Below are positions 4,275-64,000 of a DNA stretch of 64,000 bases, in pieces. The position numbers and the translations under genes were made by a program. The notes under the pieces are model-generated. The model was not told the origin of the DNA, did not search any database, and saw only the letters and a list, made by a program, of their open reading frames with translations. The DNA comes from Halomonas salipaludis (GTDB lineage: Bacteria; Pseudomonadota; Gammaproteobacteria; Pseudomonadales; Halomonadaceae). Position 1 is the stretch's first letter; every line of letters begins with the position of its first letter. The stretch is taken from contig NZ_NSKB01000003.1 in the NCBI RefSeq assembly GCF_002286975.1, positions 1 to 64,000 on the forward strand. Direction: 5' to 3'.

Positions 4275-4989
4275 CGCCTGGGACGGGCTGCGCGAACAGC
4301 TGCTGGCCACGCCGATGCTGGCCATCGGCCTGACCCTGGCGGCGTTCTTCGCCGGTGGCTGGCTGTTCGCCCGCCTCGGCAAGCCGAGCTGGTGCCCGGG
4401 CATCCTGTTCTCGGCCATGCTGCTGGCCACCGCGCTGGTAGTGCTGGGCATCGACTACACCGACTACCGCGCCGGCGCCGGCTGGCTGATGCTGCTGCTC
4501 GGCCCGGCCACCGTGGCGCTCGGCGTGCCGCTTTATCAGCAGCTGCCGCGCATCCGCGCGGTATGGAAGCCGCTGCTGATCAGCCTGCCGCCGGCGGCGA
4601 TGCTGGCAGCACTCTACGCCGTCGGTATCGCCTGGCTGCTGGGCGCCTCGCCGGATGTGCTCGCCTCGCTGGCGCCCAAGTCGGTCACCGCGCCGATCGC
4701 CATCGGTATCACCGAGCAGCTCGGCGGGGTGATCCCACTGATGATGGGCGGCCTGTTGATCACCGGGGTGGTAACTACCGCCTGCGTCGGCCTGCTGGCC
4801 CGCCGCCTGCGATTGCAGGATCCGCGGGTGCTGGGCTTCGTGCTCGGCGTCAACGGCCATGTGATCGGCACCGTGCGCGCCTTCGAGCTGGGTCCCACCG
4901 CTGGCGCCTTCGCCTCGCTAGGCATGAGCCTCACCGGCATCTTCAGCGCGTTGTTCCTGCCGCTGGCCTGGCGACTAGTGGGCCTGTAA
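4267..4989 (+). CDS. LrgB/CidB-family membrane protein
   Basis: Polytopic inner-membrane partner of the upstream LrgA-like protein, 240 residues with about seven hydrophobic segments. Diagnostic blocks are LGPATVALGVPLYQQLPRI, LAPKSVTAPIAIGITEQLGG and GTVRAFELGPTAGAFASLGMSLTGI; the KSVT-P-A segment is the family hallmark. It starts inside the lrgA-like gene (8-base overlap) and ends 60 bases before epd. Fused LrgB-LrgA homologues in plants carry glycolate and glycerate, and bacterial pairs have been linked to pyruvate uptake, so a small organic acid is a reasonable but unproven substrate. Confidence 0.9.
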   Translation: MNSAWDGLREQLLATPMLAIGLTLAAFFAGGWLFARLGKPSWCPGILFSAMLLATALVVLGIDYTDYRAGAGWLMLLLGPATVALGVPLYQQLPRIRAVWKPLLISLPPAAMLAALYAVGIAWLLGASPDVLASLAPKSVTAPIAIGITEQLGGVIPLMMGGLLITGVVTTACVGLLARRLRLQDPRVLGFVLGVNGHVIGTVRAFELGPTAGAFASLGMSLTGIFSALFLPLAWRLVGL

Positions 4990-56168: not shown

Positions 56169-56209
56169 GCATCTATCCACACACCCCAGGTGAGGGTGCG
56201 ACTCGCGAC
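56169..56209 (-). repeat. Degenerate terminal CRISPR repeat
   Basis: TCTATCCACACACCCC, then AGGTGAGG, GTGCG and ACTCGCGAC align with TCTATCCGCGCGCCCC, GTGCG and GGACGCGAC of the intact repeat, with a short insertion. It is followed by a 28-base pseudo-spacer and the first intact repeat. Confidence 0.65.
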
Positions 56210-56237: not shown

Positions 56238-59200
56238 GTTTCTATCCGCGCGCCCCGTGCGGGACGCGACTTTTTGCAGCGGCCTTGCTGCGGCCGTTCT
56301 GGGCCTCGTTTCTATCCGCGCGCCCCGTGCGGGACGCGACTCGGCGCGCTCGGCCTTCTTCTCGTCGTCGAGCATGTTTCTATCCGCGCGCCCCGTGCGG
56401 GACGCGACGTGTTACTAAGCACGCTGACGGGGAGAGTGTCACCGTTTCTATCCGCGCGCCCCGTGCGGGACGCGACGGGTGGCCAACGCCGATGGCTGGG
56501 ACGCCAGCGCAGGTTTCTATCCGCGCGCCCCGTGCGGGACGCGACGCGAGCGGGAGACCCGCACCGGGCCGGATGGGCGCGTTTCTATCCGCGCGCCCCG
56601 TGCGGGACGCGACCGTCAGCTCGCTCGCGGAACCATTCAACGCCGAGGTTTCTATCCGCGCGCCCCGTGCGGGACGCGACTGGCGGCGCGCTGCAGGACC
56701 TGACGCACATGATGTTTCTATCCGCGCGCCCCGTGCGGGACGCGACTTCCGGCGGCGACGATGGAAATAACGAGGGCAATGTTTCTATCCGCGCGCCCCG
56801 TGCGGGACGCGACCACAGAAGAACAAGAAGTCTGGTGCGAGCTCGTGATGTTTCTATCCGCGCGCCCCGTGCGGGACGCGACGCGAGCGGCTGACCACCG
56901 AGCTGGCCCTGGGCGAGTTTCTATCCGCGCGCCCCGTGCGGGACGCGACTCGCGATCGGCGGCGACGATGACGTCATCGCTGCCGTTTCTATCCGCGCGC
57001 CCCGTGCGGGACGCGACTCTTGACCTCGAGGATGCCGGGGCCATGCCGGCGTTTCTATCCGCGCGCCCCGTGCGGGACGCGACTAGATCTCAATCCAGCC
57101 ACCATACAGAGCCCCCAGGTTTCTATCCGCGCGCCCCGTGCGGGACGCGACCGGTGGCGTCAAGGATGACGGCAAGACGCCAGAGTTTCTATCCGCGCGC
57201 CCCGTGCGGGACGCGACATGGCAAACGGACCTGGCTACGGCACTGGGCCTGTTTCTATCCGCGCGCCCCGTGCGGGACGCGACTATCGACCCAGGCTTGG
57301 GCGTAGAGGTCGCCGCGACGTTTCTATCCGCGCGCCCCGTGCGGGACGCGACCTTGCCCCAGGAGGTGCGCGAGGAGCTCAACGAGTTTCTATCCGCGCG
57401 CCCCGTGCGGGACGCGACGCGACCGAGATCCTGCGCTGCTACGCCGAGGAAGTTTCTATCCGCGCGCCCCGTGCGGGACGCGACTCTACGCCGCCATCCG
57501 AGACGGCAAGATACCGGGCGTGTTTCTATCCGCGCGCCCCGTGCGGGACGCGACAATTTCTCTATGCCGCGGGCGTCGAGCTCGGCGTGTTTCTATCCGC
57601 GCGCCCCGTGCGGGACGCGACGGCCACCCATGCGGTGGCCTCTTCCGTTGCAGGGAGTTTCTATCCGCGCGCCCCGTGCGGGACGCGACGCCACCCGACC
57701 ACATCTTGCGCAGCATGGTGGGGTTTCTATCCGCGCGCCCCGTGCGGGACGCGACGCGGGAGTAGACGACCTGCCCGGTGTTGGGGTCGTTTCTATCCGC
57801 GCGCCCCGTGCGGGACGCGACGATGGTGGCGATGGTCGGCAGGTGCACGGCAGTGTTTCTATCCGCGCGCCCCGTGCGGGACGCGACGCACCTGGTTGAG
57901 CACCTTGAGATCGGTGTTGGGTTTCTATCCGCGCGCCCCGTGCGGGACGCGACTCTACGTCAGCACCACCACGCCCGTAACAAGGAGGTGTTTCTATCCG
58001 CGCGCCCCGTGCGGGACGCGACCTCGAGGCGGTCGAGTCCGGCATCACCATGTTCGAGGTTTCTATCCGCGCGCCCCGTGCGGGACGCGACTGGGCCTGC
58101 TGCAGCACCAGACTGCCGGCGATCTGTTTCTATCCGCGCGCCCCGTGCGGGACGCGACGCTGGGGGTCATCGTTGAGGAGGACCGCCACCTATGTTTCTA
58201 TCCGCGCGCCCCGTGCGGGACGCGACGCGGCCACAGCCGTTGCCGGCCAGCCATCGAGCTGTTTCTATCCGCGCGCCCCGTGCGGGACGCGACAGGGCAA
58301 GGCCTTGGGCTTGTCGCTGCGAGCGACGTTTCTATCCGCGCGCCCCGTGCGGGACGCGACTGGACGCTTGCCGGCTGACGCTCGGTGTAGCCAAGTTTCT
58401 ATCCGCGCGCCCCGTGCGGGACGCGACACCGCCAATCCGACCGACATGTCCATCGTCGGCATGGTTTCTATCCGCGCGCCCCGTGCGGGACGCGACGCCA
58501 TGCGGCGGATGCTACGGACTGGGGAAGGTGTTTCTATCCGCGCGCCCCGTGCGGGACGCGACGAGGGAGGGGAGGCGCGGATCGATCCAGTAACGGGGTT
58601 TCTATCCGCGCGCCCCGTGCGGGACGCGACATATGGCGTGGGCGGCGGTCTGCCGTTCGAACTGGTTTCTATCCGCGCGCCCCGTGCGGGACGCGACGCC
58701 ACCAGGCGTTAGAGGACAAGCAAACCGACGATGTTTCTATCCGCGCGCCCCGTGCGGGACGCGACCAGGTCAGCAGCTTTGCAGGAAGCAACCCTCAAAA
58801 GTTTCTATCCGCGCGCCCCGTGCGGGACGCGACGCCATCGCCCACGGGCTGGCCAGGCCCATATCTAGTTTCTATCCGCGCGCCCCGTGCGGGACGCGAC
58901 CCGCGCTGCGTGAGTGGGCCGCTGAGGAGCGCGACGTTTCTATCCGCGCGCCCCGTGCGGGACGCGACACCGCACAAGAGCCCATCCTCGACGCCGCCAA
59001 CGTTTCTATCCGCGCGCCCCGTGCGGGACGCGACATGGCTGTCATAATGCAGATCCTCTTACTTGGTTGAGTTTCTATCCGCGCGCCCCGTGCGGGACGC
59101 GACGTGGCGGCAGTGCGGGTCAGCGCACGGTTGTAGGTTTCTATCCGCGCGCCCCGTGCGGGACGCGACGAGCGAGCAGCCGGCTTCTGCAGACTCTGCT

Positions 59201-62200
59201 CAAGTTTCTATCCGCGCGCCCCGTGCGGGACGCGACCAGCGAAGTGACTCAGCCCGAGCAGGTCACCATCCCGTTTCTATCCGCGCGCCCCGTGCGGGAC
59301 GCGACGATGAGCAGTGCGTAGCTGGCTGGATCATCACGGTTTCTATCCGCGCGCCCCGTGCGGGACGCGACATGCACAACTCAACGCGGTCACGCGGCAC
59401 GTTCTCGTTTCTATCCGCGCGCCCCGTGCGGGACGCGACTCGCGCAGGGGTTGTATGATGCACTAATCGCAATTGTTTCTATCCGCGCGCCCCGTGCGGG
59501 ACGCGACCCTGGCGGACTAGATTGGAGCGAGCACGGGGACTCGTTTCTATCCGCGCGCCCCGTGCGGGACGCGACTTGTGTATCCATCTTTTGTGTTGTC
59601 TGTCTCCGGGTTTCTATCCGCGCGCCCCGTGCGGGACGCGACGAGCGCACGCGGGAGATCATGCAATACGTGCGCGAGTTTCTATCCGCGCGCCCCGTGC
59701 GGGACGCGACCCGAATAGATCATGCGTGCGCCTGTAACAACACCGGGTTTCTATCCGCGCGCCCCGTGCGGGACGCGACTGCTAGGCCGTATGCGCGGGA
59801 TCCTGAAGCGCTGGCGTTTCTATCCGCGCGCCCCGTGCGGGACGCGACTCGCTGGCCTTGATTATGTGGATGAGTTTCATTTCAGTTTCTATCCGCGCGC
59901 CCCGTGCGGGACGCGACCCTCGCTGGCACTCTTGTCGCTGCAGGAGTGGTGGTTTCTATCCGCGCGCCCCGTGCGGGACGCGACGAGCGCTCTACGTTCT
60001 GGGCCAAGTGGCTAAAGCGTTTCTATCCGCGCGCCCCGTGCGGGACGCGACGCTGATTGTTAATGAGCTACGTAGACGACTTGGTGTTTCTATCCGCGCG
60101 CCCCGTGCGGGACGCGACTCGAGTTATCAGCGCACACGAAGATCCCCCGGGCGAGTTTCTATCCGCGCGCCCCGTGCGGGACGCGACGCAGCAGGCCGCC
60201 TCTACCTGCATGCGAATGTGCGAGTTTCTATCCGCGCGCCCCGTGCGGGACGCGACCTGCGCTGTAGTTAGCGTATGTTCAACAGATAGCGTTTCTATCC
60301 GCGCGCCCCGTGCGGGACGCGACGTGGCAGACGCTACGATCAAGGGCAGCGAGACGGGTTTCTATCCGCGCGCCCCGTGCGGGACGCGACCGTGCGCGAG
60401 AACTACGCTATTGATGGTGGTTTGTTTCTATCCGCGCGCCCCGTGCGGGACGCGACCAGCGGCACGCAATCGCGTTGGCGGCCTCGCTGTAGTTTCTATC
60501 CGCGCGCCCCGTGCGGGACGCGACGGGCTTGAGCGAGGTTCTCGCCGAGGACAGGATGTTTCTATCCGCGCGCCCCGTGCGGGACGCGACCTTCAGCACC
60601 TTGAGCGTCTCAGCGATATGGAAAAGTTTCTATCCGCGCGCCCCGTGCGGGACGCGACTCGACGTGCTCTGCGCGGAGTAAGCGCCCGCATGTGGTTTCT
60701 ATCCGCGCGCCCCGTGCGGGACGCGACTCCCAGTCCTGGCCTGTCTCTTCGCCCCACGTTAGTTTCTATCCGCGCGCCCCGTGCGGGACGCGACCCTTGT
60801 GCCGTATCGAGGGAAGGGGGGCGCCGAGGTTTCTATCCGCGCGCCCCGTGCGGGACGCGACGTTATAAGTTGTCGATATGCGTCTGTAGGGTTAATGTTT
60901 CTATCCGCGCGCCCCGTGCGGGACGCGACACTGCAATAAGTGCGATACTACCAAAGACACTTCTGTTTCTATCCGCGCGCCCCGTGCGGGACGCGACGCG
61001 GTGATGGAGTATGTTAATCGAGTGAGAGGAGTTTCTATCCGCGCGCCCCGTGCGGGACGCGACGCGTCGGGCGCTACGAGATCAACGAGCGCCGATACGT
61101 TTCTATCCGCGCGCCCCGTGCGGGACGCGACGACATCGAAGATGGGGTTGTTGCGCGACATCTGGAGGTTTCTATCCGCGCGCCCCGTGCGGGACGCGAC
61201 CAAGATGGCGGCGACATTCCACCAATTCCTGATGGTTTCTATCCGCGCGCCCCGTGCGGGACGCGACGAGGCTGAGCTAGCGACCCACCGCCATGACCTT
61301 GAGGTTTCTATCCGCGCGCCCCGTGCGGGACGCGACGCCGTGAGGTTGTGGCGCATCAAGACTAGCGCATCGTTTCTATCCGCGCGCCCCGTGCGGGACG
61401 CGACCTCTTCGCGCTCAAGCAGGAGTCCCGTGCTGGAATGTTTCTATCCGCGCGCCCCGTGCGGGACGCGACTAGGGCCATATTAGGCAATCATCGCCGC
61501 CATAAGGTTTCTATCCGCGCGCCCCGTGCGGGACGCGACGGTTCTGAATCTATCGACGTCACCAGTGATGGCGGTTTCTATCCGCGCGCCCCGTGCGGGA
61601 CGCGACGCCAGCGATGCCGCCCGCTGCGTTAACGGCAGCCAGTTTCTATCCGCGCGCCCCGTGCGGGACGCGACCCATCGCCCAAGTGCTCAACGCCACC
61701 AATGCGGGTTTCTATCCGCGCGCCCCGTGCGGGACGCGACACGTGGGCCGACACTGGCGAGGCGCAGACCGATCAGTTTCTATCCGCGCGCCCCGTGCGG
61801 GACGCGACCCTCGCTGGCACTCTTGTCGCTGCAGGAGTGGTGGTTTCTATCCGCGCGCCCCGTGCGGGACGCGACGAGCGCTCTACGTTCTGGGCCAAGT
61901 GGCTAAAGCGTTTCTATCCGCGCGCCCCGTGCGGGACGCGACGCTGATTGTTAATGAGCTACGTAGACGACTTGGTGTTTCTATCCGCGCGCCCCGTGCG
62001 GGACGCGACCGCCCTAAAGGACGGGGATTCCCAATTCAACGAGTTTCTATCCGCGCGCCCCGTGCGGGACGCGACACGATACGCTCAGGATTGGGTCAAA
62101 CACCACATTGTTTCTATCCGCGCGCCCCGTGCGGGACGCGACGGGGTTTTTTATTGCCCGCACAATCCTAATAGTCAGGTTTCTATCCGCGCGCCCCGTG

Positions 62201-63017
62201 CGGGACGCGACACCTACGTCATGGCGTCTAATCGTCACGATATGCCCTGTTTCTATCCGCGCGCCCCGTGCGGGACGCGACAGCTTACACTGTGCCCCGA
62301 CGGCGGGGCGTGTAAGTTTCTATCCGCGCGCCCCGTGCGGGACGCGACGGCCGAGTTCTTAGCCAGGCGGTGGAGGATGGCTTGTTTCTATCCGCGCGCC
62401 CCGTGCGGGACGCGACACCGGGCTAAGGTGAAATAATGGCGGTCCTAATTGTTTCTATCCGCGCGCCCCGTGCGGGACGCGACACAGTGGTTCGGGGCAG
62501 TGCCTGATTATGTGGACGTTTCTATCCGCGCGCCCCGTGCGGGACGCGACCGTCGATCTGATCAGCCGGGTTGTCGCCAGGGTTGTTTCTATCCGCGCGC
62601 CCCGTGCGGGACGCGACCGCATGAAGGGCTGGGCGGGATGGTTCCTGTTGCCGTTTCTATCCGCGCGCCCCGTGCGGGACGCGACAATAGCATGAGGCGC
62701 GTAAGGCGTGCTAGGGGTTGTTTCTATCCGCGCGCCCCGTGCGGGACGCGACACGTCCGATAGTTGGGGCCTCGCCTGAGTATGCGTTTCTATCCGCGCG
62801 CCCCGTGCGGGACGCGACGAGGATTAAGCCCATCCTCCACCGCCTGGCTAAGTTTCTATCCGCGCGCCCCGTGCGGGACGCGACATGGCTGGCGCGACCC
62901 TTGCGGTAGATGGCGCGGTTTCTATCCGCGCGCCCCGTGCGGGACGCGACTCTTCTGTAGTGAGCAATCTCACCGTGTCCGACTGTTTCTATCCGCGCGC
63001 CCCGTGCGGGACGCGAC
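56238..63017 (-). CRISPR. Type I-C-like CRISPR array, 101 repeats and 100 spacers
   Basis: The repeat is 33 bp; on the plus strand it runs GTTTCTATCCGCGCGCC, CCGTGCGGG, ACGCGAC. Counted by eye there are 101 apparently identical copies from 56238 to 62985 (starts), with spacers of 33-37 bp and period 66-70. On the minus strand the repeat begins GTCGCGTCCCGCACGGGG and ends CGCGGATAGAAAC, a variant of the type I-C consensus (which usually ends GGATTGAAAC). CGCGTCCC-GCAC-GGGGCGCG forms an 8-bp hairpin with one G-T wobble. Leader and cas2/cas1 at the high-coordinate end plus a degenerate repeat at the low end show that crRNA is read on the minus strand and new spacers enter near 62985. Spacers at 59918-60085 and 61809-61976 are duplicates. 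Confidence 0.97.
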
Positions 63018-63204
63018 TGCTCCTTTATAACGCATTGAAATACCGATCAAAATGGGCAGCATCTTGCGAAACTGCCAAAGTAACGCAGGGAAAGCACCCA
63101 TCAGCCGGCTGATAAATCTAAAAATCTTTCAAAATCATATTATTAAAGAGCCGCGAACCCACCGGGAAAGTGCCAGACACTATGGGTTCGCAAGACTAAG
63201 GAAA
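63018..63204 (-). promoter_or_regulatory. CRISPR leader
   Basis: 187 bp between cas2 and the first repeat, AT-rich toward the array. It carries an inverted repeat GCGAACCCA (63153-63161) / TGGGTTCGC (63183-63191), a CTTTAATAATATGATTTTGA stretch just after it on the minus strand, and a perfect 14-bp palindrome ATCAGCCGGCTGAT (63100-63113). Confidence 0.85.
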
Positions 63205-63495
63205 TCAGAAAACGAGCGGGCCGTTCATATCCAAGGCAGGCTTGGCGCCGATATGCTCGATTCGATTCTTCCAGTTCCTGCCCAGGAAATAGAAACGCAG
63301 GCTGTCGACTTCATCATCGATCAGGTCGATCAACCGCTGTCGCAAGCGCACCCATTGGTCGGGATCGACCTCGATCTCGAATACCGAGAATTGCACTCGT
63401 TGCCCGACATCTCGGCAAGCCTTGGCAACACGGCGCAGTCGCCCCTCGCCGCCATCGGAAGAAGTGCTGACATCGTAGCTGACCAGAACCATCAT
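63205..63495 (-). CDS. cas2: CRISPR-associated endonuclease Cas2, type I-C
   Basis: 96 residues. Opening MMVLVSYDVSTSSDGGEGRL has the beta1 strand and the conserved Asp, followed by RLRRVAKACRDVGQRVQFSV then FEIEVDPDQW, and RFYFLGRNWKNRIEHIGAKP. With Cas1 it forms the spacer-integration complex. AAGGAG is 9 bases before ATG 63495. It follows cas1 after 21 bases, and the array leader follows it, the standard cas1-cas2-array layout of I-C loci. Confidence 0.96.
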   Translation of the reverse strand: MMVLVSYDVSTSSDGGEGRLRRVAKACRDVGQRVQFSVFEIEVDPDQWVRLRQRLIDLIDDEVDSLRFYFLGRNWKNRIEHIGAKPALDMNGPLVF

Positions 63496-63516: not shown

Positions 63517-64000
63517 TCACTTCCACAGGAAGGGTGGGTAGGCATCCAGATCGCCGCGCAGATGGCGCGCCAGCAATTGCGCCTGCAGAATCGGCAGCAT
63601 GCCTATTGGCGCCTTCTCGCCAATAAAGGCATGGTTGAGCTCTTCACGCTTCCGCTCCTGATAGGCAGTCAGTACGGTCTTGCGCGCATCGTCAGTCAGT
63701 ACCACGCCGCCACTTTCAGCAACCGTGAAATCCTTCTCCCGAAGCTGGCGACGATTGACTAGAGACAGCGCCAGTCGGTCCCCCAGCAGCGGCCTGAACT
63801 CCTCAGCCAGGTCGAGTGCCAAGCTGGGTCGCCCAGGCCGGTCGCGGTGCAGGAACCCTACCGCAGGGTCCAGTCCAACGCTTTCCAGCGCCGAACGGCA
63901 GTCGTGGGTCAGCAGCGTATAAAGAAAGGACAGCAGAGCATTGATGCGATCACGCGGAGGGCGGCGATTGCGGCCAGTGAAGCGGAAAGCTTCACCGTCA
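63517..64000 (-). CDS. cas1: CRISPR-associated endonuclease Cas1, type I-C (C-terminal 160 residues)
   Basis: Integrase subunit of the adaptation complex. The frame is open to the window edge, so about 160 of roughly 340 residues are present. Visible are [60 protein letters not shown] with the active-site His and the E-E region [20 protein letters not shown]. These match the I-C Cas1 pattern ([22 protein letters not shown]). Upstream genes on the minus strand beyond 64000 should be cas4 and the effector genes. Confidence 0.96.

Follow-up and report, generated by a model that had tools for sequence, protein, structure and literature searches.

A block of three consecutive spacers is present at two places in the type I-C CRISPR array of the window (the whole 64,000-nucleotide stretch of DNA that was analysed), and it very probably arose by internal copying, in which recombination between the identical 33-bp repeats duplicated part of the array. 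Two refinements can be made to the preliminary description of this DNA, in which the block had been noticed: simple slippage is not enough to explain the layout, and the copy distal to the leader is probably the original.

The repeated block and its array

The spacers at 59918-59951, 59985-60018 and 60052-60085 are the same, base for base and in the same order, as those at 61809-61842, 61876-61909 and 61943-61976. The offset is 1891 bp and the spacers on both sides differ, all as first described; the offset equals 28 units. Coincidence is no explanation for a match of three 34-mers in one order. The copies share 234 identical bp (three spacers with their four bounding repeats), beyond which the left flank matches for no more than 3 bp and the right flank not at all. 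Counted from the leader, spacers 16-18 correspond to spacers 44-46, and no other identical pair was found among the 100 spacers of the array (Table 1). A block duplication, taken as at least two consecutive spacers repeated exactly, with their order kept and a repeat at either end, is thus present. Each duplicated spacer has exactly two sites in the whole assembly with up to 3 mismatches allowed, both of them in the array, and self-targeting by the three spacers was accordingly not found outside the array at that threshold. The next longest stretch shared within the array is a 22-nt reverse-complement overlap between spacers 10 (62349-62383) and 3 (62819-62851), which appear to be separate acquisitions from overlapping sites of one target on opposite strands.

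Table 1. Coordinates of the CRISPR features in the window
Feature	Position	Strand	Remarks
Candidate degenerate terminal repeat, trailer end	56172..56202	-	local alignment score 14, where 300 shuffles gave at most 13; weak candidate
Type I-C CRISPR array	56238..63017	-	100 spacers between 101 perfect 33-bp repeats; leader at right end
Distal block copy	59885..60118	-	spacers 46, 45, 44 with bounding repeats; probably original
Spacer 43	60119..60154	-	leader-side neighbour of distal copy; matches same tail gene as middle duplicated spacer
Interval between copies	60119..61775	-	spacers 43 to 19, 25 spacers, all unique
Proximal block copy	61776..62009	-	spacers 18, 17, 16 with bounding repeats; probably copy
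Spacer 15	62010..62042	-	neighbour of proximal copy; matches end of IS200/IS605-type TnpB element
Leader, presumed	63018..63204	-	between cas2 and first repeat; placed by position only
cas2	63205..63495	-	
cas1 of subtype I-C, 3' part	63517..64000	-	gene runs on past window end

The repeat of the array, GTTTCTATCCGCGCGCCCCGTGCGGGACGCGAC, is identical to the base in 101 of 101 copies, the oldest included, and the spacers are 33-37 nt long (n = 100). A possible degenerate copy to the left of the array is the sole repeat that departs from this sequence. A search of the whole 5.48-Mb, 33-contig draft assembly found no second array with the same repeat. Judging from the position of the cas operon, transcription and spacer rank should run from right to left, with rank 1 at the right end because the leader is taken to adjoin cas2 there; this orientation is supported by the TTC beside the match of spacer 15. 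After cas2 and cas1, the operon continues beyond the window with cas4, cas7, cas8c, cas5 and cas3. NCBIfam models for Cas5c, Cas8c/Csd1, Cas7/Csd2, Cas4, Cas1c, Cas2 and the Cas3 HD domain scored above their cut-offs, and the Cas3 helicase core reached 99.9 bits, slightly under its cut-off of 102.45. The array therefore lies next to a complete type I-C system, cas3-5-8c-7-4-1-2. The closest named relatives of its Cas1, at 97% identity, belong to Halomonas and Billgrantia, which places the host within Halomonadaceae.

The spacers of the older (left) part of the array have a G+C content of approximately 65% and those of the younger (right) part approximately 57%, with a step at 59002 (permutation p approximately 0.001) that could stem from a change in the phages encountered or from two arrays having been joined long ago. 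Such a joining, considered as the cause of the step, was rejected, since the step coincides with neither copy of the block.

Routes to two separated copies

Three spacer-repeat units (201 bp, spacers 44-46) would have been duplicated by way of identical repeats and the copy placed 28 units closer to the leader. Recombination within the array is supported by the 234-bp identity, which stops at unit boundaries, and any pair of repeats can recombine because all of them are identical. The preliminary description had proposed recombination between repeats in place of repeated acquisition, which stands; its suggestion of a single unequal exchange or replication slippage does not, since such an event leaves the copies adjacent and here 25 unique spacers intervene. 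These spacers imply either the copying of a short tract to a repeat far away or a long tandem duplication that lost part of its length to a later deletion. The former is favoured, although with less certainty than recombination as such: a short-tract event joining distant repeats could be a template switch, a gene conversion, or the excision and re-insertion of a small circle, and the separation of 1.9 kb would suit homologous recombination or template switching no worse than slippage at a fork. No new mechanism is needed for the duplication.

The trimmed tandem duplication is a possible but less favoured route, in which unequal exchange would first have made a tandem duplication of spacers 19-46, and subsequent deletion of the leader-side set of spacers 19-43 would have left the three-spacer remnant. 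Only two well-known kinds of event are required, and tandem block duplications are present in three related arrays (L054, L119 and L053). However, both events would have to be long (approximately 28 units for the first, 25 or more for the second), against a mean of 2.7 spacers for inferred deletions (PMC11472070), and no spacer from 19-43 is still doubled. In a toy simulation of arrays that gained spacers at the leader and lost blocks by deletion, the observed kind of pattern appeared in 0 of 6000 runs with short tandem duplications, in 0.3-1.0% of runs with long tandem duplications and deletions, and in 2.7-6.1% of runs with short ectopic copies, so that the two-event route was approximately six- to ninefold rarer than ectopic copying, a ratio that serves as a guide only, as rates and length laws were assumed. 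Recombination between this array and a related one of another strain that shared the block but carried different surrounding spacers is improbable. The shift in spacer G+C along the array could mark a foreign part, but its step at 59002 lies at neither copy; no other array with this repeat was found in the genome, the repeat was absent from four congeneric genomes, the middle spacer was in no other genome searched, and recombination between arrays is considered rare by the authors of SpacerPlacer (PMC11472070).

An error of assembly, or a mixture of strains whose different arrays were merged into one contig, is still more improbable as the source of the second copy. The assembly is a draft of 33 contigs and the 234-bp block is close to or above the length of short reads, yet four distinct junctions of the block are present (spacer 47 to block, block to 43, 19 to block and block to 15), each spanned by less than 110 bp, and no stray contig with the block occurs in the assembly. 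With these junctions and a single chain of spacers 43 to 19, a single linear genome must carry the block twice, and only a strain mixture could imitate the two-copy layout. The earlier remark that an assembly error is possible, and that collapse of the block would be likelier than its copying, is therefore sound. Independent re-acquisition of three protospacers in the same order had been called very unlikely, and the order together with the exact ends of three 34-mers excludes it for practical purposes. Single spacers that seem to have been re-acquired are held by two related arrays (L048 and L050), but their ends differ by 1-2 nt, whereas here the order, ends and lengths of three spacers are all identical in an array whose spacers vary over 33-37 nt. 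Copying within the array remains the preferred explanation of the repeated block.

Spacer targets and the direction of copying

The middle duplicated spacer, when translated, reads ERSTFWAKWLK, a peptide found exactly or with one change in a tail protein (PHROG 11439, category tail) encoded by two viral contigs, to which the spacer has 4 and 6 nucleotide mismatches. Spacer 43, beside the distal copy, reads RVISAHEDPPG, and the same tail protein has QAISAHESPPG 377 codons past the match of the middle spacer; this alignment scored 46, while 2000 shuffled spacers reached at most 38 and the second-best real spacer 29. The proximal copy has as its neighbour spacer 15, which differs by 3 mismatches from the 3' end of a TnpB element in a congeneric genome (L166, approximately 4337-4369), with TTC beside the match, and has 94% identity to many enterobacterial plasmids; no copy of this target was found in the host assembly within 3 mismatches.

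Acquisition of spacers from one phage tends to cluster in time, as in primed adaptation. The distal copy is likelier to be the original because the middle spacer and its neighbour 43 match one tail gene, while the neighbour 15 of the other copy matches a TnpB element. The argument turns on one neighbouring spacer and makes this direction of copying probable; the chance that a copy would land beside the sole other spacer from the tail gene is approximately 2 in 100 (two places in approximately 97).

A search of the three spacers against phages and plasmids, suggested in the preliminary description, gave a match for the middle one, in the phage tail gene, and none for the other two. No protospacer of the first or third was found by blastn in phage and plasmid records or with codon-degenerate or 20-mer patterns in viral contigs, nor was one of the third found in related phage records. 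The exact scan of genome contigs gave no match to the middle spacer. Prophages with the tail protein were not found in 275 genomes of the family, in a search run without a positive control.

Several other spacers also have matches. Spacer 40 (60324-60357) matches a protospacer of the viral contig IMGVR_UViG_3300011777_000024 (L084) with a single mismatch, and its peptide is also encoded by a methylase gene in Idiomarinaceae phage 1N2-2; it was considered as added evidence for the same phage and dropped, as the peptide is a common motif found in 17 contigs. TTC stands 5' of the protospacer of spacer 15 in L166, of spacer 45 in L072 and of spacer 40 in L074 and L093, and the other, mostly diverged matches have TGC, TCC or other trinucleotides, including TGC by the closest match of spacer 40 (L084). 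Among the older spacers, 76 (57888-57920), 67 (58497-58529) and 93 (56747-56780) match Halomonas phage QHHSV-1 with 3, 6 and 9 mismatches, respectively.

Repeated blocks in other arrays

Relatives were found through Cas1, giving 52 distinct arrays beside I-C-type cas1 genes. Among the 24 arrays of at least 40 spacers, the present one included, exact spacer duplicates were found in 10, repeated blocks of at least two spacers in five, and non-adjacent repeated blocks in three (the present array, L158 and L060), frequencies that are approximate as some arrays are cut by contig ends or by the fetched range. Block duplications, tandem and non-adjacent together, were identified in the related arrays L054, L060, L158 and L119. 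For instance, four spacers are duplicated in tandem in L054, whose assembly is one contig; L158 has a three-spacer block with copies 11 units apart, and the copies in L060 are 8 units apart, the latter two cases both coming from draft assemblies. At spacer indices 83-91, the L060 array, from a Salinicola relative, has one spacer nine times in a row along with several interleaved block copies, which could be biology or assembly. In the 224-spacer I-C array L048, several spacers recur with a difference of 1-2 nt at their ends, which is what renewed acquisition from one protospacer would give. It is doubtful that a distinct process of short-tract ectopic copying, for example by repair of breaks at internal repeats on a misaligned sister array, lies behind the non-adjacent block copies of long I-C arrays; if such a process were real, old spacers would be brought nearer the leader and array order would not be a plain timeline.

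In the literature, duplication candidates constitute 3.3% of 24,090 spacers in SpacerPlacer (PMC11472070), and repeated blocks are presumed to be duplications, identical series being unlikely to be acquired twice, in the review of Garrett 2021 (PMC8047081). The three-spacer duplication is thus a further case of a known phenomenon, repeated spacer blocks being already described in reviews, and it is less remarkable than the preliminary description held, because related arrays contain similar duplications and others have been published (PMC8047081; PMC11472070). Its predicted consequences are that the template for three crRNAs should be doubled, and nothing more, and that the 234-bp direct repeat should raise the likelihood of losing the 28 intervening units. 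The duplication is otherwise ordinary array evolution, and its value lies in offering a clean example of a single event for which the spacer targets tell the probable direction and in showing how an old block can end up near the leader, which matters where spacer order serves as a timeline.

The complete operon, the 33-bp repeat and the spacers of 33-37 nt are all as in type I-C systems, and the TTC by several protospacers in relatives of the targets may be a further likeness; nothing differs here except the block duplication. Similarly, the duplication resembles known repeated spacer blocks in that a contiguous series with exact unit boundaries has two occurrences, which are interpreted as duplication through repeats and not as repeated acquisition (PMC8047081; PMC11472070); the usual picture of such blocks is a short tandem duplication by replication misalignment, whereas the present copies lie 28 units apart.
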